This document shows, in pieces, positions 5,867 through 61,014 of a stretch of 64,000 nt of DNA. Source of the stretch: Mucilaginibacter cryoferens (lineage in GTDB: Bacteria > Bacteroidota > Bacteroidia > Sphingobacteriales > Sphingobacteriaceae); NCBI RefSeq assembly GCF_014205845.1, contig NZ_JACHCR010000009.1:1-64000 (forward strand), read 5' to 3'. The notes beneath the pieces are model-generated. The model did not search any database, was not told where the DNA came from, and was given only the letters and a program-made list of their open reading frames with translations. The stretch's first letter is position 1; each line of letters begins with the position of its first letter. Position numbers and translations under genes: made by a program.

Positions 5867-6598
5867 TTATTCTAATTCCTGCAAATTTGCCGCGGCGGGC
5901 TCATCTAAAAACCATTCGGTTTCGCCAACTATCGAGTCGATGAGTTGGGCAGGGTATTCTTCAATGTTTTCGTCGTCTTCCAGTACATGGTGTACAGCAA
6001 TTGCCTTGCCTTCGCCATAAACCAGAAATGCGATGTAGCGTGCATCGTTTATTAACGGTGCATTAAGTGTAATGCGCCATACCTGCTGGTCTTCCAGCCA
6101 TACTTCTTTTACACCGGGTGTGGTATCGTGCAATACCGGTGTATGCGGAAATAACGACGCGGTGTGCGAGTTATCGCCCAAGCCTAATAGTACAAGGTCG
6201 AAGCTTAACTCGTCCTCATCAAAAAAGGTAGCCGTCATTTCCCAATACCTTGCAGCAGCTTCGGCCGGCTCAAACGTGGTATCAACCGCGAAGATGTTGG
6301 CAGGGCTTATCAGTAAAGGATCAAACAGGGCTGTTTTAGCCATCAGGTAGTTGCTATCCTTATGGGTTTGAGGCACGTTGCGCTCATCGCCAAAAAAGAA
6401 ATAAACCTTGGTCCAGTCAACCTGGTCGGCATAGCTGGTAGAAGCTAAAAGCTCATACAGTTTTTTGGGCGAGCTGCCTCCCGATAGGGCTACGGTAAAT
6501 TTACCCCTGGCGGTGATGGATGCATCGGCTATTTTAACAAAATAATCTGCCAGGGCCATAAGCACTTCATCGGCAGTATTAAAGATATTTAAGTTCAT
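5867..6598 (-). CDS. pgl: 6-phosphogluconolactonase
   Basis: Hydrolyses 6-phosphoglucono-delta-lactone to 6-phosphogluconate, the second step of the oxidative pentose phosphate pathway, in the cytosol. It has 243 residues, the usual size of the DevB/SOL type. Recognisable blocks are FTVALSGGSSPKKLYELLA near the N-terminus, the phosphate-site segment VYFFFGDERNVP..HKDSNYLMAK, and LLGLGDNSHTASLFPHTP. In many homologues the last block reads GxDGHTASLFP; here Asp-Gly is Asn-Ser, with the HTASLFP part kept. It is the last gene of the operon, 117 bases after zwf. A 19-bp perfect inverted repeat begins 10 bases before its start codon. Confidence 0.93.
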   Translation of the reverse strand: MNLNIFNTADEVLMALADYFVKIADASITARGKFTVALSGGSSPKKLYELLASTSYADQVDWTKVYFFFGDERNVPQTHKDSNYLMAKTALFDPLLISPANIFAVDTTFEPAEAAARYWEMTATFFDEDELSFDLVLLGLGDNSHTASLFPHTPVLHDTTPGVKEVWLEDQQVWRITLNAPLINDARYIAFLVYGEGKAIAVHHVLEDDENIEEYPAQLIDSIVGETEWFLDEPAAANLQELE

Positions 6599-6608
6599 GT
6601 GCTATTTT

Positions 6609-6696
6609 TCAGTGGTCGGAGGTCTGAGATCGGTGCTCGGAGACCTGAAATCAAGAACAGGGTAATCCATTCATTTTTCAGACCTCCGACCACTGA
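6609..6696. repeat. Phrase-type inverted repeat between zwf and pgl
   Basis: Perfect 19-bp arms at 6609-6627 and 6678-6696 (TCAGTGGTCGGAGGTCTGA and its complement), with 50 bases between. A degenerate second copy of the phrase (TCGG..CTCGGAGACCTGA) follows the left arm. It nearly fills the 117-base gap. It has no T-run and so does not look like a standard terminator. Confidence 0.85.
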
Positions 6697-6715
6697 CTTC
6701 AGGCCACAGATTCAA

Positions 6716-8233
6716 TTAATTTTTCTTCCCGTTTACCGGTAATGTAAACCAGTTATAACCATCACGGGCAATTAATGCCTCGGCGGCTTCCGGTCCCCAT
6801 GAGTCGGCAGAATAATTAGGGAAGTTAAGGCTCTTTTTATGTTGCCATGTGCTTAGTATCGGCATAACCAATTCCCATGCAGCTTCAACCTGGTCGCCAC
6901 GCATAAACAGGGTTTGATCGCCCATCATGGTATCCAGTATCAGGGTTTCGTAAGCTTCTGGTGCCTGGTTGGTATAGGTACCTTTGTAATCAAACACCAT
7001 ATCAACGGCGTTTAGTACCATATCAATACCCGGGCGTTTAGCCTGTACCTGTAAGCGGATGCTCATTTCTGGCTGTATGCTAATGATCAGCCTGTTTTGC
7101 TGCCAGCTTTCGGTGGCTTCGGCAGGGAAAATCATGTGCGGCACATCCTTAAACTGGATGGTAATAACAGATGATGACTGGTGCATTCTTTTACCGGTAC
7201 GTAAATAGAAAGGTACACCCTGCCAGCGCCAGTTATCAATAAAAAACTTAATAGCTGCAAAAGTTTCGGTATTAGATTCGGGATTAACCTTAGGCTCTTC
7301 ACGGTATCCCGGAACTTCTTTGCCTTTCATCCAGCCGCTGCCGTACTGGCCTCTAACAGCCGAATTACGTACATCCTCTGGAGTAAATTTGCGCATGGCT
7401 TTTAATACATCAACCTTGCGGTCGCGTACTTCATCGGCGCTAAAGCTAACCGGTGGTTCCATGGCAATGTGGCAAAGTAATTGCAACAGGTGATTCTGTA
7501 TCATATCGCGCATAGCGCCACTGCCATCGTAGTAATCACCACGTTCTTCAACGCCCAGTTGCTCGGTAACCGAGATCTGTACGTGCTCAATATAGTTACG
7601 GTTCCACAATGGCTCCATAATGGAGTTTGCAAAGCGGAAAGCCATTATGTTTTGTACGGTTTCTTTGCCCAGGTAATGGTCTATACGGTATATCTGGCAT
7701 TCGTCGAAAATGCTCTTCAACAATTGGTTTAGCTCTTTGGCAGTTTCCAGATCGTGGCCAAATGGCTTCTCGATAATGATGCGTACCCGTTTTTTATCTT
7801 CGGCCAGTTTGGCTTTAGAAATATTGGATGCGATGATAGGGAAAAAGTTAGGCGCTACTGCAAGGTAAAACAATACGTTTGCCTTGGTTTTCCACTCGGC
7901 ATTGTGCTTGTCTATCCGTTTACCAAACTCTTTATAGGTTTCGGCGTCGGTTGCATCAGATACCTGGTAGTAAATGTTGTTTACAAACTCGGCCCATTTC
8001 TTCTCGTCGGTTTTACCGCTGCGCGAAAACTGGTTGATATCGTTATGCAGGTTCTCTCTGAATTGCTCGTCGGTAAGTTTGGTACGTCCGGTGCCAATTA
8101 TAGAAAATTGCTTAGGCATCCAGCCGTCTAAAAATAAATTATACAGTGCCGGGGCAATTTTACGGGAATTTAAATCGCCCGTGCCACCAAAAATAATAAA
8201 TATGGTAGGCTCTGATTTTGTGCTTGTGCTCAT
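6716..8233 (-). CDS. zwf: Glucose-6-phosphate 1-dehydrogenase
   Basis: Oxidises glucose 6-phosphate to 6-phosphoglucono-lactone, producing NADPH; entry enzyme of the oxidative pentose phosphate branch. From the chosen start it has 505 residues, normal for the family. The nucleotide-binding motif FGGTGDLNSRK is at about residues 15-25 and the catalytic block RIDHYLGKETVQ at about 182. I chose the ATG at 8233 (MSTSTKSEPTIF). A longer frame to 8332 would add 33 residues unlike the family and would run through the repeat arm at 8270-8280. It lies between gnd and pgl, giving three consecutive oxidative steps in one operon. Confidence 0.95.
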   Translation of the reverse strand: MSTSTKSEPTIFIIFGGTGDLNSRKIAPALYNLFLDGWMPKQFSIIGTGRTKLTDEQFRENLHNDINQFSRSGKTDEKKWAEFVNNIYYQVSDATDAETYKEFGKRIDKHNAEWKTKANVLFYLAVAPNFFPIIASNISKAKLAEDKKRVRIIIEKPFGHDLETAKELNQLLKSIFDECQIYRIDHYLGKETVQNIMAFRFANSIMEPLWNRNYIEHVQISVTEQLGVEERGDYYDGSGAMRDMIQNHLLQLLCHIAMEPPVSFSADEVRDRKVDVLKAMRKFTPEDVRNSAVRGQYGSGWMKGKEVPGYREEPKVNPESNTETFAAIKFFIDNWRWQGVPFYLRTGKRMHQSSSVITIQFKDVPHMIFPAEATESWQQNRLIISIQPEMSIRLQVQAKRPGIDMVLNAVDMVFDYKGTYTNQAPEAYETLILDTMMGDQTLFMRGDQVEAAWELVMPILSTWQHKKSLNFPNYSADSWGPEAAEALIARDGYNWFTLPVNGKKN

Positions 8234-8269
8234 TGTTGATTTTATTTTGTGAACAAAGATTTTTGGAGC

Positions 8270-8420
8270 AAGGAGCAAGGATTTTTGGAATAAGGACGAA
8301 GGGGCAAAGAGCAAGGATGACTTACTCATCATAACACTTCTTAACTCCTTAGTCTATTCATCTTTGTTCTTAACTCCCTTCTATCTATGTTCCTTCTTTT
8401 TTCTTTGTTCCTTGCTCCTT
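8270..8420. repeat. Phrase-type inverted repeat between gnd and zwf
   Basis: A purine-rich block of iterated AAGGAGCAAGGAT-like phrases (8265-8327) faces a pyrimidine-rich block (8335-8440) on the same strand. The best matched arms are AAGGAGCAAGG (8270-8280) and CCTTGCTCCTT (8410-8420). The block runs into the gnd stop region. The same phrase recurs at 49696-49849. Confidence 0.75.
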
Positions 8421-8426
8421 AAATCC

Positions 8427-9851
8427 TTACTCCGCCTTCGTCCACTGTGTATGGAAAGTGCCTTCTTTACCAATAAGCTCATAAGTATGTGCGCCAAAAT
8501 AATCGCGCTGAGCCTGGGTAAGGTTAGATGGCATTCTTGCACTGCGGAAAGCATCAAAGTAACTTAATGATGCGGCATAAGCAGGGGTGGCAATACCGGC
8601 AGCAATAGTTTTTGATAATAATGTTCTGATACCTTTTACAGATTCTTCAACCAGTGCCGCTACATTGCTATCTAACAGCAAGTGCTCAAGGCCGGCTTCT
8701 TTCTCGTAAGCGTTAAAAATATCGTTCAGGAATTTTGAGCGGATGATACAGCCGCCTCGCCATATCTTGGCAATTTCGCCTAAGTGCAGATCGTACTTGT
8801 ACTCGGCAGATGCATTTGAAAGTAAGTGCATACCCTGCGCATAGCTAATAATCATGGTGAAATAAAACGCCTGCTCTAATGCAACAAGTATCTCATCTTT
8901 ATCGGCATCTAAAACGATCTCGTCTGTGCTGTATATAGCGGCCGCTTTAACACGTAATGCTTTGTATTTAGACAGATCGCGCATTGATACAGCGGTATCA
9001 ACAGTAGGGATAGGTGCCTGCAGGTCCATCGCTACCTGCGATGTCCATTTACCGGTTCCTTTGGCGCGGGCCTCGTCTTTAATATCATCTAATAATAAAT
9101 GATCGGTCCCCGGTGCTTTAAAGGCGAAGATATCTTTGGTGATATCTAACAGGAACGATTGTAAACGGCCTTCATTCCACTGGGCAAATACCTTTTGGAT
9201 GGCATCATTATCAAGCTTAAGGCCTTTTTTCAATACCTCGTAGGTTTCTGCCAGTAATTGCATTAAGCCGTACTCGATACCGTTGTGTACCATTTTAACA
9301 AAGTGACCAGATGCACCCGGACCAATGTAGGTTACACAAGGTACACCATCAACCTTGGCGGCAATGGCTTCAAATATTGGTTTCATTACGTTGTAGGCAT
9401 CCTTATCGCCGCCCGGCATCATGCTTGGGCCACGACGGGCGCCTTCTTCGCCACCAGATACACCCATGCCAAAGAAATGCAGGCCAATAGCCTCCAGTTG
9501 GTCAACACGGCGGTTGGTATCGGTAAAGTGCGAGTTACCTCCATCAATTAAAATATCACCTTTTTCCAATAAAGGAATAAGCTCCTCAATTACGGCATCT
9601 ACAATTTTACCGGCAGGTACCAGCATCATAATAGCACGCGGGGTAGTAAGGCTTTGTACAAATTCTTTTACATCGCCAAAACCTTTAGCGGCCCTATCGC
9701 CTGCTTCTTCATTTAATGATGCTACTTTACCGGCATCTTTATCATGCCCGGCTACTGCAAAACCGTGATCGGCCATGTTGAGTAGTAAGCTACGGCCCAT
9801 AACGCCTAAGCCTATCATGCCAAAAGCATATTTATTTGTTGTTGCGCTCAT
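8427..9851 (-). CDS. gnd: 6-phosphogluconate dehydrogenase, decarboxylating
   Basis: Converts 6-phosphogluconate to ribulose 5-phosphate and CO2 with reduction of NADP. It has 474 residues, the size of the long homodimeric form. Visible are the N-terminal Rossmann motif GMIGLGVMGRSL (about residues 12-23), the substrate motif GVSGGEEGARRGPSMMPGG, the catalytic GASGHFVKMVHNGIEYG with its Lys, and the late blocks ISYAQGMHLL and YFGAHTYE. The start is only one base after the HAD gene's stop codon, so the two are translated from one message. Downstream, 193 bases holding a phrase-type inverted repeat separate it from zwf. Confidence 0.96.
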   Translation of the reverse strand: MSATTNKYAFGMIGLGVMGRSLLLNMADHGFAVAGHDKDAGKVASLNEEAGDRAAKGFGDVKEFVQSLTTPRAIMMLVPAGKIVDAVIEELIPLLEKGDILIDGGNSHFTDTNRRVDQLEAIGLHFFGMGVSGGEEGARRGPSMMPGGDKDAYNVMKPIFEAIAAKVDGVPCVTYIGPGASGHFVKMVHNGIEYGLMQLLAETYEVLKKGLKLDNDAIQKVFAQWNEGRLQSFLLDITKDIFAFKAPGTDHLLLDDIKDEARAKGTGKWTSQVAMDLQAPIPTVDTAVSMRDLSKYKALRVKAAAIYSTDEIVLDADKDEILVALEQAFYFTMIISYAQGMHLLSNASAEYKYDLHLGEIAKIWRGGCIIRSKFLNDIFNAYEKEAGLEHLLLDSNVAALVEESVKGIRTLLSKTIAAGIATPAYAASLSYFDAFRSARMPSNLTQAQRDYFGAHTYELIGKEGTFHTQWTKAE

Positions 9852-11754: not shown

Positions 11755-12462
11755 TTAATTATTTGATGCAACCAGTATCTCCAGGTTGTACCCTATAAAT
11801 AATCCGCTTTCTATTACGCCTGTAATGCCTTTAATGTCCTTTTCTAAGGTTATGGGCACCTCGTTAAAACGGCAATCTAAAACCATGTTATTGTTTTCGG
11901 TGATGATTGGTCCGTCTTTACCTTTTGCCGGTCGTACTATAATGCTGTTGGCTCCTAATTTTTCAAGCTCGGCCTCCACATGCAGCAACGCTTGTGGAAA
12001 CACTTCAATAGGGATAGGGAAATTGGTCCCTATTTTATCCACTATTTTAGAGTCGTCGACAATAATATAATTAACCCCGCTGGATGCAATAAGTAACTTC
12101 TCTTTAAACATGGCACCACCGCGACCTTTGATGAGGCTATTGTTTGGGTCAACCTCGTCGGCACCATCAAACAGCCAATCGGGTTTGTGTTCAAACAAAC
12201 TGGTAAGCGGGATGCCCAATTTGGTACAAAACATCGAAATTTCTAACGATGTAGGAATAGCTAAAACGTTTAGCTTCTCGGCCTTAATTCTATCGGCAAT
12301 AGCCAATAAAGCCATATACACGGTAGATCCCGAGCCTACGCCCAGCACATCGCCATCCTTTACCTTGTCGGCAATTTGCTGCGCTACTTTCTGTTTGCCG
12401 GCAGCATTAATGATCTCTGACGACCAGGCTAAATTTTTGATTAAACTACTTTCCCAATTCAT
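11755..12462 (-). CDS. rpiA: Ribose-5-phosphate isomerase A
   Basis: Interconverts ribulose 5-phosphate and ribose 5-phosphate, linking the oxidative branch to nucleotide synthesis. It has 235 residues. The RpiA family motifs are all present: LGVGSGSTVYMAL (phosphate loop), WLFDGADEVDP (catalytic Asp pair) and KGRGGAMFKEKLL (catalytic Glu and Lys). The gap to the upstream tkt stop is almost exactly filled by a long inverted repeat whose left arm begins 7 bases before this start codon, so a hairpin there could mask ribosome entry. Downstream it is separated from tal by 176 bases. Confidence 0.95.
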   Translation of the reverse strand: MNWESSLIKNLAWSSEIINAAGKQKVAQQIADKVKDGDVLGVGSGSTVYMALLAIADRIKAEKLNVLAIPTSLEISMFCTKLGIPLTSLFEHKPDWLFDGADEVDPNNSLIKGRGGAMFKEKLLIASSGVNYIIVDDSKIVDKIGTNFPIPIEVFPQALLHVEAELEKLGANSIIVRPAKGKDGPIITENNNMVLDCRFNEVPITLEKDIKGITGVIESGLFIGYNLEILVASNN

Positions 12463-12468
12463 GGATTT

Positions 12469-12637
12469 AGATTTGAGATGTGAGATATGAGATATGAGAA
12501 TTTTGCCAAGTGGCGAAACTCCCGATCTCTCAAATCACACATCTAATATCTGTTGTTTTTCAAATCAGATAAGAGATTAGAAACCCGTACATCCTGTGTA
12601 GCTGAGTCTCAAATCTCATATCTAACATCTCATATCT
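12469..12637. repeat. Phrase-type inverted repeat between tkt and rpiA
   Basis: Arms of 31 bases at 12469-12499 and 12607-12637 match as inverted repeats at 28 of 31 positions. Each arm is itself an iterated phrase of the GAGATATGAGAT type with a period of about 7-8. More degenerate copies lie in the loop (about 12535-12590). The right arm overlaps the tkt stop codon and the left arm starts just before rpiA. Confidence 0.9.
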
Positions 12638-14639
12638 ATAAAAGCGCTTTAGCGCGAGCCACTACATTATCAACTGTAAAGCCAAAGTGCTTGTACAGGT
12701 CTTCGGCCGGGGCCGATTCGCCAAAGGTGGTCATGCCCAGCATGTCGCCTTCGTCGGTAGTGTATTTATGCCAGCCCATTGGGGATGCCATTTCAACAGC
12801 CAAACGTTTGCGGTATGCTTTAGGGAATACCGTCTCTTTGTAAGCCGCATCCTGTTTTTCAAACAATTCCCACGATGGCATACTTACCACACGGGTTGAA
12901 ATACCTTCAGCTTCTAATTTAGCCTGTGCCTCCATGATCAAGGCAACTTCAGAACCGGTTGCTATTAATAGCAGATCAGGGTTTTTGCTGGCTTCAGATA
13001 GTATGTAAGCGCCTTTTTCAAGGTTTTCTGCCTTGCCATATTTATCCTGGTCAAGAATAGGTAAGCCCTGGCGGGTGAACACCAACACGGTTGGACCACC
13101 TTTTTTCTCGATAGCTACGCGCCATGCATGCACACTTTCGTTAGCGTCGGCCGGGCGGATGATAGTAACGTTTGGTATTGAGCGTAATGAAGCTAATTGC
13201 TCAACCGGCTGGTGGGTTGTACCATCCTCGCCTAAACCAATACTATCGTGGGTATAAACAAATATCGGGCTTATCTTCATAATGGCTGCCAAACGGATTG
13301 GCGGGCGCATATACTCAGAGAACATGAGGAAGGTAGCACCAAACGGTAACACGCCTTTTGTTAAAGCCATACCATTTAAGGCAGAGCCCATAGCATGCTC
13401 GCGGATACCGAAGTGGAAGTTACGGCCGCCCCTGTTTTCTGATGTAAAGGAATCAAACCCTTTCAGGTTGGTTTCTGTAGATGGTGATAGATCTGCCGCG
13501 CCGCCAATTAAATTTGGAAGGCTTGCCGCAACGGCGTTTAATGTTTTACCAGATGCCACACGGGTAGCTACTTTAGGATCTGACGCTTTAAATACCGGCA
13601 AGTTAGCTTTCCAGCCTTCAGGTAGTTCGCCTTTAAATGCGGCTTCGTATTCGGCGGCTAATTCTGGAAATTGTACTTTATAATCGGCAAATAACTTGTT
13701 CCATTTTTCTTCTGATGCAGCACCACGTGCTCCTTTGGAGTGGTAATACTCCAACACTTCATCAGGCACGTTGAATGATTTATCCGGATCGAAGCCAAAA
13801 AACTCTTTAACCAGTTTAATTTCGTCGGCACCAAGCGGTGCACCGTGTGACCCTGCTGTACCCGATTTGTTTGGGCTACCATAAGCGATCAACGAACGCA
13901 CGCGGATCAACGATGGTTTTTGTGCCTCGGCTTTGGCGTTTACTAAAGCCAGTTCTAAAGCATGGATATCATTAACATCGGGCAGATCCTGCACATGCCA
14001 GCCGTACGAGCGGAAACGGGCGCTTACATCTTCGTTAAAAGTAATATCGGTAGCACCCTCTATCGAGATGTGGTTATCATCGTATAAATAAATAATGTTG
14101 CCCAACTCCAGGTGGCCTGCCAATGAAGCAGCCTCTGAGGTTACACCTTCCATCATATCGCCGTCGCTCACAATAGCGTAAACGTGGTAGTTGAAAAGAT
14201 CGAAACCGGGTTTGTTGTAACGGGCGGCTAAGTGTTTTTGTGCAATGGCAAAACCAACACCATTGGCAAAACCCTGGCCCAACGGACCGGTGGTAACATC
14301 AATACCAGGAGCCAAACCATACTCGGGGTGACCGGCGGTTTTGCTGTTTAACTGGCGAAATTGTTTAATATCATCCAAACTCAAATCGTAACCGGTTAGG
14401 TACAAAAAGCTGTACTGTAACATACAGGCATGACCGCATGATAGGATAAACCTGTCGCGGTTTGCCCAATCGGGATTTTTAGGGTTGTAGTTTAATGCTT
14501 TCGACCATAAAACATGGCCCATTGGCGCAAGCGCCATGGCTGTGCCGGGGTGCCCCGAGTTTGCTTTTTGCACTGCATCTGCCGATAAGATCCGTACGGT
14601 ATCTATTGCTAATTTTTCTATGTCGGTGGTATTTTCCAT
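12636..14639 (-). CDS. tkt: Transketolase
   Basis: A thiamine-diphosphate enzyme that moves two-carbon ketol units between pentose, hexose and heptose phosphates in the non-oxidative branch. Its 667 residues match the full-length bacterial form with three domains. Seen are the N-terminal SGHPGTAMALAPMGHVLW, GIDVTTGPLGQGFANGVG, the diphosphate/Mg site SDGDMMEG..., the catalytic pyrimidine-domain block GIREHAMGSALNGMAL, and a complete C-terminal domain ending VARAKALL. It lies 54 bases after the glucokinase gene and 173 bases before rpiA. Nothing suggests a split-gene arrangement. Confidence 0.97.
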   Translation of the reverse strand: MENTTDIEKLAIDTVRILSADAVQKANSGHPGTAMALAPMGHVLWSKALNYNPKNPDWANRDRFILSCGHACMLQYSFLYLTGYDLSLDDIKQFRQLNSKTAGHPEYGLAPGIDVTTGPLGQGFANGVGFAIAQKHLAARYNKPGFDLFNYHVYAIVSDGDMMEGVTSEAASLAGHLELGNIIYLYDDNHISIEGATDITFNEDVSARFRSYGWHVQDLPDVNDIHALELALVNAKAEAQKPSLIRVRSLIAYGSPNKSGTAGSHGAPLGADEIKLVKEFFGFDPDKSFNVPDEVLEYYHSKGARGAASEEKWNKLFADYKVQFPELAAEYEAAFKGELPEGWKANLPVFKASDPKVATRVASGKTLNAVAASLPNLIGGAADLSPSTETNLKGFDSFTSENRGGRNFHFGIREHAMGSALNGMALTKGVLPFGATFLMFSEYMRPPIRLAAIMKISPIFVYTHDSIGLGEDGTTHQPVEQLASLRSIPNVTIIRPADANESVHAWRVAIEKKGGPTVLVFTRQGLPILDQDKYGKAENLEKGAYILSEASKNPDLLLIATGSEVALIMEAQAKLEAEGISTRVVSMPSWELFEKQDAAYKETVFPKAYRKRLAVEMASPMGWHKYTTDEGDMLGMTTFGESAPAEDLYKHFGFTVDNVVARAKALL

Positions 14640-36398: not shown

Positions 36399-36500
36399 GA
36401 AAAATCGGGAAAGTCCGTAAATCAACAAAACACTCCAACTAGTGGTAAACTATATAATACACTAATAACCTTCGGGACTTTCGGACTTTTCCGACTTCCG
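36399..36500. repeat. Phrase-type inverted repeat between kinase and regulator genes
   Basis: Left arm around 36399-36418 (ATCGGGAAAGTCCG) and a right block at about 36469-36500 made of iterated CGGGACTTTCGGACTTTTCCGACTTCC-like phrases, complementary at about 14 of 17 positions. It fills the 120-base gap and ends 12 bases before the regulator ATG. Confidence 0.75.
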
Positions 36501-36512
36501 GACTAACATAAC

Positions 36513-37218: not shown

Positions 37219-37403
37219 AGCTGTCTCAATTTGATTTATTAATGCTTTTATAGTTCTAATGAAACATCTATCCAAGCGTCGTTGCGAGGCACGAAGCAAT
37301 CTCTACATAGGCAGATCAGACATACAAACCCGCTCCTCAGTATAGCATAGAGATTGCTTCGTGCCTCGCAATGGCGGTTTACTTTTTGTGTTTTTAGACA
37401 GCT
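37219..37403. mobile_element. MITE-like palindromic repeat, about 185 bp
   Basis: Bounded by 8-bp terminal inverted repeats AGCTGTCT (37219-37226) and AGACAGCT (37396-37403). Inside are perfect 23-bp inverted repeats at 37283-37305 and 37348-37370 (core TTGCGAGGCACGAAGCAATCT and its complement), 42 bases apart. No coding capacity. Related pieces lie at 271-281, 50975-51031, 51089-51099 and 55789-55890. Its right end overlaps the VOC gene's last codons. Confidence 0.8.
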
Positions 37404-49695: not shown

Positions 49696-49849
49696 GAGTA
49701 AGGATTTGAGGAGCAAAGAATAAGGACGGGAAAGAAAGGACAACAGATTGGTATTACTACCAGATCTGTTGTCCCTTCTTTTTTAATAGCCGGCATCAAG
49801 GAATCCATTATCCAAGAATCCTTGCTCTTTGCTCCCCAAATCCTTATTC
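49696..49849. repeat. Phrase-type inverted repeat enclosing a terminator-like hairpin
   Basis: Outer arms of 31 bases at 49696-49726 and 49819-49849 match as inverted repeats at 27 of 31 positions, made of AAGGATTTGAGGAGCAAAGA phrases like those at 8265-8440. They enclose a smaller hairpin at 49738-49774. Convergent genes end on both sides. Confidence 0.85.
49738..49784 (+). terminator. Terminator of the subtilase gene
   Basis: Perfect 11-bp stem GGACAACAGAT / ATCTGTTGTCC with a 15-base loop, then CTTCTTTTTT on the plus strand. It lies 66 bases past the protease stop, inside the larger phrase-type repeat. Confidence 0.85.
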
Positions 49850-54454: not shown

Positions 54455-54463
54455 TTTTATTTT

Positions 54464-54532
54464 AGTCGTAAGTACTAAGTACTAAGTCTGGAATTACTCT
54501 GAGGCTTTAGACTTAATACTTACGACTTTTTG
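54464..54532 (+). terminator. Phrase-type inverted repeat with T-run after rpsB
   Basis: Arms AGTCGTAAGTACTAAGT (54464-54480) and ACTTAATACTTACGACT (54511-54527), 16 of 17 pairs, 30-base loop, followed by TTTTT. The left arm continues in further TACTAAGT copies, so it is also a phrase-type repeat. It lies 9 bases past the rpsB stop and would end or attenuate transcription before tsf. Confidence 0.75.
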
Positions 54533-59904: not shown

Positions 59905-59909
59905 ATTTT

Positions 59910-60107
59910 ATCACGAAGTTTCACGAATTGAGGCAAATTTCACAAACCCATATTGGGATTAAGGCATTTTAAATACCACGCTCAAACGATTTTTTTTCAA
60001 CGTGGAGATGCAATTATGCGTCTCTAAATAAAAACTTCCGAAGTTTTTAACCTTCGGAAGCCGCTTATCATTCGTGAAATTCGCCTTAATTAGTGAATAT
60101 TCGTGTT
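59910..60107. repeat. Phrase-type inverted repeat between lipocalin and SPFH genes
   Basis: Outer arms of 34 bases at 59910-59943 and 60074-60107 match as inverted repeats at 28 of 34 positions, with iterated TTCACGAATT-like phrases. They enclose the smaller hairpin at 60035-60060, and the right arm touches the SPFH stop codon. Confidence 0.8.
60031..60060 (-). terminator. Terminator of the rhodanese-SPFH operon
   Basis: Stem CTTCCGAAG / CTTCGGAAG (9 bp, perfect) with an 8-base loop. On the minus strand it is followed by TTTTTATTT. Confidence 0.85.
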
Positions 60108-61014
60108 AGTTCTTATCGCTCAGCATTATGGGGTTCCCCTTGCCTCCGCCTATAATAATTACTTTGGCGTTAGGTGAGGTAGCAATGGCTATCTGGGCTT
60201 TGATGGCTTCGTATTGCAATTGCTTGTCGGATAGGCCGGTGGAGAGTATCTTTTGGTAGTCGGCAATACCCTGCGCTTCTACGCGCTTACGTTCGGCCTC
60301 CTGCTTTTCTTTTTGCAGTACAAACTGCATTTTCTGGGCATCCTGCTCCGCATTTATCTTCGACTCGATACTGGCCCTTACAGAGGCTGGCAGGGTAATA
60401 TTACGTACCAGTATCTGTTGCAACTCTAACCCTCGTTTGGCAAAGTTGGCGGTAATGTAGCGGTTTATTTTATCCTGAAACTCTTGCCGTTTGGTAGAAT
60501 ATAAATCAACAGCAGCGTAAGCCACTGCATTATCGCGTATAGCAGTACGGGAAACGGGCCGTACTATTTTATCTAAATAGTTTTCCCCTATGTTTTGAAG
60601 AATAAATGGTGCCCTATCTGGTATTACCTTATATAATACCGAAAGATCGATGGTAACCTCCAATCCATCAGAAGATAATACGCGAATAGCATCATCGCCC
60701 TCCTTTTGCCCTTCGCTGCTAACAGCGCTCATGGTATAAGTTTGGGTTTGGATATCGAAAATAGTGATCTCTACAGCGGGATTAATAATATGCAACCCGC
60801 TCTCTAAAACATTATCCTGCACCTTGCCAAAAAGGGTTTGTACCCCTACTTTGCCGGGCTCAATAACCTTAAACATGGATAGTAACAGGCCCAGGGCCAC
60901 CATTACTACCCCTACTATACTTACCGTATTACTAAAGTGATTGGCCGGCTCTGGTGAGCGTTTGAGTACGATGCCCACCACCAGCACTATAACTCCTAAA
61001 ATTGCTATAAACAT
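60106..61014 (-). CDS. SPFH/Band 7 (prohibitin-like) membrane protein
   Basis: A 302-residue membrane-anchored SPFH protein. Two hydrophobic stretches (about 1-16 and 30-48) precede the SPFH domain (about 50-215, VIEPGKVGVQTLFGKVQDNVLESGLHIINP, IFDIQTQTYTM, SDGLEVTIDLSVLYKV), then a Glu/Lys/Gln-rich coiled coil (about 215-260, EQDAQKMQFVLQKEKQEAERK). The end has VIIIGGGKGNP. Prohibitin-like proteins form large rings that organise membrane proteases or lipids. It is the last gene of the rhodanese operon, 9 bases after the 62-aa protein. Confidence 0.92.
   Translation of the reverse strand: MFIAILGVIVLVVGIVLKRSPEPANHFSNTVSIVGVVMVALGLLLSMFKVIEPGKVGVQTLFGKVQDNVLESGLHIINPAVEITIFDIQTQTYTMSAVSSEGQKEGDDAIRVLSSDGLEVTIDLSVLYKVIPDRAPFILQNIGENYLDKIVRPVSRTAIRDNAVAYAAVDLYSTKRQEFQDKINRYITANFAKRGLELQQILVRNITLPASVRASIESKINAEQDAQKMQFVLQKEKQEAERKRVEAQGIADYQKILSTGLSDKQLQYEAIKAQIAIATSPNAKVIIIGGGKGNPIMLSDKN

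Follow-up and report, generated by a model that had tools for sequence, protein, structure and literature searches.

Inverted repeats at the gene junctions of the window

In the window (that is, the whole stretch of 64,000 nucleotides that was analyzed), the gap between rpiA and tkt, the latter identified by a TIGR00232 match in a profile search, is entirely occupied by an element without an open reading frame (ORF) that ends in two inverted arms (Table 1). Each arm consists of five heptads of the form NRG-N4, and the stop codon of tkt is itself the first TAG of the minus-strand arm. A sequence-only reading of this DNA had pointed to seven inverted repeats made of iterated short phrases, and all seven were found at the positions that it gave. 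The iterated nature of the arms was confirmed by TRF and by the 7-nt autocorrelation (0.75 at 6609 and 0.82 at 12468), the phrase GGAGCAA is indeed common to the loci at 8270 and 49696, and the idea of a recurring class whose phrase differs in most places was borne out. One of the seven, at 59909-60108, is an inverted repeat of another kind and was excluded from the class, as the strict comb (NRG every 7 nt) is absent there and its phrase unit is 9-10 nt.

Table 1. Features of the focal gap and of the other inverted-repeat loci of the window. Strict units are NRG triplets at exact spacing.
Feature	Position	Strand	Inverted repeat (length, complementarity)	Strict units	Setting
rpiA	11755-12462	-			downstream of focal element
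Focal element, ORF-less	12463-12635	.	12468-12499/12607-12638 (32 nt, 91%)	5+5	whole tkt-rpiA gap
Focal arm, phrase GAGATNT	12468-12498	+		5 (TAG GAG GAG GAG GAG)	
Focal inner third arm, partial	12525-12546	-	82% complementary to 12467-12488		
Focal opposite arm	12608-12638	-		5	
tkt	12636-14639	-			upstream of focal element
Class member, GTCTGAG/GTCGGAG	6609-6706	.	6609-6627/6678-6696 (19 nt, 100%)	4 (6683-6706, minus strand; one arm only)	between zwf (6716-8332, -) and pgl (5867-6598, -)
Class member, GGAGCAA	8264-8434	.	8270 region, several registers (71-81%)	5 (8286-8316, +); 4 (8396-8419, -) and 4 (8411-8434, -)	between gnd (8427-9851, -) and zwf
Octad variant, AAGTCCGA	36402-36504	.	36402-36423/36476-36497 (22 nt, 82%)	4 (period 8; one arm only)	between histidine-kinase-like and response-regulator-like genes, both under NCBIfam cut-offs
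Class member, GGAGCAA	49695-49850	.	49695-49726/49819-49850 (32 nt, 88%)	3+3	
Class member, AAGTACT	54463-54528	.	54464-54489/54502-54527 (26 nt, 81%)	4+4	after rpsB
Other kind, TTTCACGAA, about 10 nt	59909-60108	.	59909-59946/60071-60108 (38 nt, 82%)	none	excluded from class

At 49696, the comb is interrupted by a single 8-nt step, and five units can be counted by eye. Some further observations concern the same stretch. The listed start of zwf (8332) falls within a hairpin region (8284-8332), and the gap lengths of its orthologues suggest a later start. The TTTCACGAA-like repeat looks like a separate repeat family. There is an inverted repeat with AAGCAATCTC at 37274-37379 (32-nt arms, score 24.5), and the word AAGCAATC, found again at two other loci of the same genome (L086 and L122), represents another dispersed family.

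Excess over chance and spread in the genome

Whether such repeats could be expected by chance was a question that the sequence-only reading had left to random shuffling, and they proved to be far above it. Among 262 gaps (those of the window and of 20 further 20-kb stretches from the same genome), an ungapped inverted-repeat score of at least 15 was reached in 38, compared with 1 of 262 Markov-shuffled gaps, the 38 being a mixed set in which many are terminator-like hairpins of convergent gaps or members of other repeat families and the class described here is only a part. The 7-nt spacing can also be detected without reference to inverted repeats. In 464 kb, four RAG triplets in a row were found 22 times at spacing 7, between 0 and 5 times at any other spacing tried (4 to 14), and never at spacing 7 after shuffling. 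The peak at 7 nt is not shared by all 14 words, since CAN at four units was found 45 times at spacing 6 against 33 at spacing 7.

In the complete genome (6.95 Mb, with a transketolase 96% identical to those of the nearest named relatives, M. dorajii and M. flavus), the pattern GAGATNTGAGATNTGAGAT occurs 123 times with up to one mismatch, and its reversed control does not occur. The same genome also has expanded heptad runs of 12-15 units at L105, L125 (16348-16448) and L110 (7251-7333), with phrases such as TTGGTCA, GGCTAAA and GAGATAT.

Genes for IVP lie between the arms

One GAGATNT copy of the genome has a gene inside, coding for the four-helix-bundle protein IVP (also called S23p; PF05635/TIGR02436). 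GAGATNT arms occur with and without an IVP gene, as terminal inverted repeats common to ORF-less and gene-bearing copies. TIGR02436 has no match in the window and six in the genome, all of which also match PF05635 (“23S rRNA-intervening sequence protein”) and lie between period-7 inverted arms, each pair with its own phrase. Their settings include sdhA-sdhB, nuoF-nuoG (the nuoG match being partial), pyrR-pyrB and the positions before nuoN and before argG. The phrase of one of these copies (L129), TTGGTCA, is also that of an expanded run.

The association extends to other genomes. An inverted-repeat score of at least 13 between the flanks was observed at 6/6 IVP genes of this genome, 21/28 of the genus and 11/26 of the phylum (after exclusion of loci too short to be scored, 1/29 and 3/29, respectively), while neighbor genes reached it in 0/6, 0/34 and 4/42 cases and shuffled flanks in none. 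The remaining IVP loci, 7/28 in the genus and 15/26 in the phylum, were below this threshold. The family itself is common, being present in 60 of the 61 Mucilaginibacter and 75 of the 99 Bacteroidota genomes sampled, and its gene is co-directional with both neighbors in 95 of 102 loci. Structures have been solved for two relatives, 2gsc and 2rld, and both consist of five chains.

The arms usually have five units

Whatever the phrase, the arms consist mostly of five NRG triplets placed 7 nt apart. This rule was noticed by eye in the tkt gaps before it was counted in them, and there the maximum strict comb length at 7-nt spacing was five units in 18 of 34 species, six in one, four in two, three in seven and fewer in six. 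The count covered the first 60 nt after tkt in 33 Mucilaginibacter loci and the window, out of 80 tkt loci, and excluded L022, whose sequence ends with the gene. Shuffled sequences reach a comb of five or six in about 0.2% of cases, and other spacings in the same gaps gave at most three units (spacings 5, 6 and 9) or five units in a single species (spacing 8). By eye, no heptad arms were found in the tkt gaps of four loci from other genera (L032, L033, L037 and L059).

The number five is also the most frequent elsewhere. GAGATNT arrays, listed from three units upward, have exactly five units in 31/38 cases in this genome, 9/12 at tkt loci and 52/59 at IVP loci. At 129 distinct IVP loci, strict counts gave 37 combs of three units, 26 of four, 97 of five, 24 of six and 10 of at least seven, where the shuffled counterpart gave 41 of three, five of four and one of six. 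Units of 8 nt at IVP loci were found five times per arm in 10 arms, four times in 5 and six times in 1, together with 23 chance-like threes, so that the unit number five seems to be kept even when the unit length changes. A strict comb of at least four units is present in at least one flank of 85 of the 129 loci (62 have it in both flanks), against 3 after shuffling. The rule is not universal, as no strict comb of four was found at the other 44. In this genome, for instance, three of the six IVP loci have a strict comb and the other three (L128, L130 and L131) do not, yet these have period-7 inverted arms. As for the units themselves, many arms of the AAGCNNA loci (L229-L249) have one AAGACC or AAGACT unit, and several other families end the arm in RAGAC, a distinct inner unit.

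The phrase follows the protein

There were 102 distinct IVP loci with both neighbors, of which 78, in 31 linked contexts, had flanking arms scoring at least 12. When the contexts differed and the IVPs were at least 70% identical, the phrase was shared in 57 of 62 pairs, and this figure was the same whether different sites were defined pair by pair or by linked contexts, although the cross-site match leans on few families, mainly AAGCNNA. When the contexts differed and the identity was below 45%, the phrase was shared in about 1% of pairs. Conversely, within one context, IVPs less than 55% identical shared their phrase in 0 of 39 pairs. As judged from these comparisons of sequences, the phrase goes with the IVP protein and not with the site. 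In the IVP cluster that includes the GAGAT type, joined at 60% identity or more, 18 of 22 members are in the sdhA-sdhB context; with so many IVPs of a lineage at one site, the transfer of ORF-bearing copies looks rare.

The number of copies of a phrase in a genome is also associated with the presence of the corresponding IVP. Among 149 Mucilaginibacter genomes, the median number of GAGATNT copies was 73.5 in the 22 genomes with their own IVP type and 14 in those without it (p 2e-7). The equivalent medians were 41 (9 genomes) and 4 for AAGTNNA (p 5e-6), 60 (23 genomes) and 17.5 for AAGCNNA (p 1e-5), and 17 (25 genomes) and 0 for AAGTATC (p 9e-9). These p values are optimistic, the genomes being related by descent, and the cross tests of an IVP type against a foreign phrase serve as the control: 11 of 12 were null (p 0.11-0.91) and one gave p 0.044. 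Presence of the GAGAT and AAGTNNA types was scored by identity to one query each, and that of the other two by a block of the hit list of one or the other query (47-58% identity for AAGC and 45-54% for AAGTATC), where the phrases of some members were known beforehand and members with other phrases were retained. There are exceptions. G230 (108 GAGATNT hits) and G206 (86) have only broken pieces of IVP with no matching arms nearby, and GAGATNT is abundant in G008, G051 and G199, which have no IVP of the GAGAT type at 75% identity or more.

The same gaps in related genomes

In most Mucilaginibacter relatives, the tkt gap has an inverted repeat, but its phrase varies widely between species (e.g., GAGATNT, AAGTATC, CAAGAAT, GTGAGTA and GTTGTGA, among others). 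By eye, such repeats are also present where the gene downstream looks like rpiB instead of rpiA. The zwf-pgl gap (6599-6715 in the window) is at most 8 nt from stop to start in 16 of 31 relatives, and 9 of the 32 gaps, counting the window, have inverted arms built of 7- or 8-nt phrases, the repeats of the others being weak, different or absent. The empty zwf-pgl gaps and the varied phrases of the tkt gaps indicate that sites may be filled or empty and that unrelated phrases are possible at one site. Inspection by eye of empty and filled zwf-pgl gaps gave no evident target duplication, and the interiors of the element copies are not alike.

Pairing and reading of the arms

The RNA of the focal gap is predicted to fold strongly (z = -6.95, with 0 of 200 shuffles as stable), and its terminal inverted repeats are of the stem-forming kind found in the 23S rRNA intervening sequence (IVS; about 28 bp). 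Two ordinary candidates for such a structure were ruled out: a scan of 12300-12900 for terminator-like sites, which would show a GC-rich stem ahead of a U run, found 0 at the focal gap (0.4 being expected in shuffles), and the window has 0 matches to the known RNA families of Rfam.

Arms maintained by pairing would be expected to agree in register at their variable bases. Over 29 GAGATNT elements, such bases match at 25 of 116 positions, although 44.9 matches (sd 5.7) are expected when the arms are dealt among elements, and 1999 of 2000 deals reach 25. Our guess is that this depletion reflects an avoidance of perfect palindromes. In two further families, AAGCNNA (13 usable loci out of 17) and AAGTATC (7 out of 11; two of the seven, L133 and L215, are the same place), identity in register was about equal to that of shifted or dealt arms; for AAGTNNA, the test had 2 usable loci of 11. 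Upkeep of the hairpins by compensatory change was consequently rejected. As the arms do not match in register, it seems that a sequence reader, and not pairing, keeps them.

IVP genes outside Bacteroidota

An IVP match was present in 30 plasmid records, of which 10 were analyzed (nine cyanobacterial and one from Azospirillum). The flank score was at least 15 in 8 of these 10, and the arms had period 7 in all seven that were long enough to measure. In the Azospirillum record (L258), the IVP frame is inside an IVS of a 23S rRNA gene (Rfam LSU), with 5 and 5 NRG units. Contigs classed as viral contained 11 IVP relatives, with a flank score of at least 15 in 4 of the 9 that were scored, and heptad-like arms were seen by these relatives at L264, L266, L268 and L269. 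Additionally, a Pseudanabaena plasmid (L254) carries, between cas6 and cas4, an IVP gene accompanied by long runs of AAAAGCT heptads.

Proposed explanation and its rivals

Our preferred reading, to which we give a probability of about two in three, is that the hairpins represent IVS-type mobile elements in copies that lack the ORF, with a cognate pentameric IVP recognizing them. The anatomy of the elements, their association with IVP, the specificity pattern and the empty sites are observed, and from them we infer binding and mobility. The ORF-bearing copies have a single IVP gene between two inverted arms. An arm is an array whose units are 7 nt long (8 nt in some cases), usually number five and mostly consist of NRG plus a family-specific 4-mer. 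In this proposal, the IVP would read its own phrase in RNA, in single-stranded DNA or at DNA ends, each subunit of the ring taking one heptad, and might act in trans on the ORF-less copies. These could then spread into co-directional gene junctions, where they would ride host transcription, and RNase III, which acts in this way on rRNA IVSs, would probably cleave the hairpin once it is transcribed.

The strongest competitor, which we consider unlikely, also assumes that IVP reads the arms, but for another purpose. It holds that the sites are a post-transcriptional regulon. A TRAP-like IVP ring would bind the five NRG units of leaders between cistrons and control the gene that follows, autoregulation would account for the arms around the IVP gene, and sites would be gained and lost by selection. 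The location of the sites at gene junctions, the co-directional IVP genes (95/102), the copy numbers that track the IVP of the same phrase, and arms that behave as reading arrays and not as pairing stems would all be accounted for in this way. A conserved regulon, however, would not be expected to show unrelated phrases, or none, in the same gaps within a genus; moreover, the named flanking genes are of mixed function and there is a copy in an rRNA gene (L258).

Explanations in which IVP has no role are much less probable still. The arms could be of mutational origin only, with slippage producing the heptad arrays, fold-back template switching their inverted copy, and the link to IVP arising by hitchhiking; long runs, such as a 14-unit GAGATNT array and one of 15 units at L125, are what slippage would give. 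Slippage alone was rejected because the unit number peaks at five, template switching predicts arms identical in register, which they are not, and the phrase follows the IVP instead of the site. We regard as equally improbable that the repeats are structural hairpins of any sequence, acting as terminators or RNase III sites for mRNA processing at gene ends. The sequence-only reading had leaned toward this type of explanation (a structural need for hairpins at gene ends or a process that makes them there), and the strong RNA fold and the location of the window sites at gene ends agree with it. It fails, nonetheless, on the orthologous zwf-pgl gaps that lack an inverted repeat (at most 8 nt long in 16 of 31 relatives), on arms that change without compensation (in two families no better than shifted or dealt arms and in a third depleted) and on the negative terminator scan, and it leaves the sharing of phrases with IVP genes unexplained.

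A broader and more tentative generalization, which we think has perhaps less chance of being right than wrong by a good distance, is that IVP/S23p is a sequence-reading ring whose code would be one NRG-N4 heptad or octad per each of five subunits, with the 4-mer set by few residues. The same principle might then be behind rRNA IVSs, the hairpins between cistrons in Bacteroidota and some, at least, of the cyanobacterial heptanucleotide repeats, and IVP elements could be among the commonest small mobile elements of these phyla. IVP/S23p has been described as functionally uncharacterized (in a passage of PMC11270868) and as having no known function (in one of PMC4990558). This common family now gains a candidate partner, a predicted stoichiometry (five heptads per arm and five subunits) and a putative specificity code that can be read from genomes. 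For two puzzles, how rRNA IVSs arose and the cyanobacterial heptanucleotide repeats, it supplies a candidate reader. Among the papers found by searching open PubMed Central, no title or abstract opening reports a link between heptad arms and IVP.

Relation to known systems

The nearest system is the 23S rRNA IVS, which resembles the elements described here in having an inverted-repeat stem of about 28-35 bp around an optional PF05635 gene. According to excerpts of one report (PMC4990558), a published IVS ends in a 28-bp stem, and its S23p ORF is directly preceded by heptamers in tandem, three of them (two in some strains) followed in the count by a degenerate copy; the S23p of Xanthomonas is cited there as a toroidal homopentamer, and that of one 23S IVS was concluded to be probably not made in its host. 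No link between the heptamers and the pentameric protein is made in these excerpts (PMC4990558). The copies of the window differ in being located between protein genes, in lacking an ORF and in having phrase families matched to IVP lineages. The sequence-only reading had stated that no named element class fits, which holds insofar as this nearest class, with its S23p/IVP gene, is described inside rRNA genes in the excerpts available, but IVS-type elements are the nearest class nonetheless. It had also argued against one mobile sequence. The many phrases do rule out a single one, and what takes its place are parallel families, each phrase with its own IVP lineage.

MITEs are non-autonomous copies of transposons, short and ORF-less, with inverted repeats, that outnumber the gene-bearing ones. 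The elements studied here are similar in this respect, but they share only their arms and have no target duplication evident by eye. The STRRs of cyanobacteria are heptanucleotide repeats. Repeats of TAACTGA are reported from Beggiatoaceae, cyanobacteria and some Bacteroidetes (PMC4679880). Like the arms, such repeats are 7-nt tandem intergenic units, often placed just before start codons; by contrast, the arms are inverted pairs, usually of five units, with a different candidate reader protein.

Regarding the protein, Avd (4DWL), an accessory protein of diversity-generating retroelements (DGRs), has been related by homology to the PF05635 structure 2GSC in a passage of PMC10053308, whose reference list describes 2GSC as five four-helix bundles. 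A profile search against solved structures did not recover Avd from sequence. TRAP (trp RNA-binding attenuation protein) is a ring of eleven subunits, each of which binds one regularly spaced (N)AG triplet. The combination of a ring protein with spaced NAG-type triplets is reminiscent of the arms and their putative binding by IVP, where five is the commonest unit number and also the number of chains in 2gsc and 2rld. As TRAP has another fold and eleven subunits, it is an analogy only for how IVP might act.
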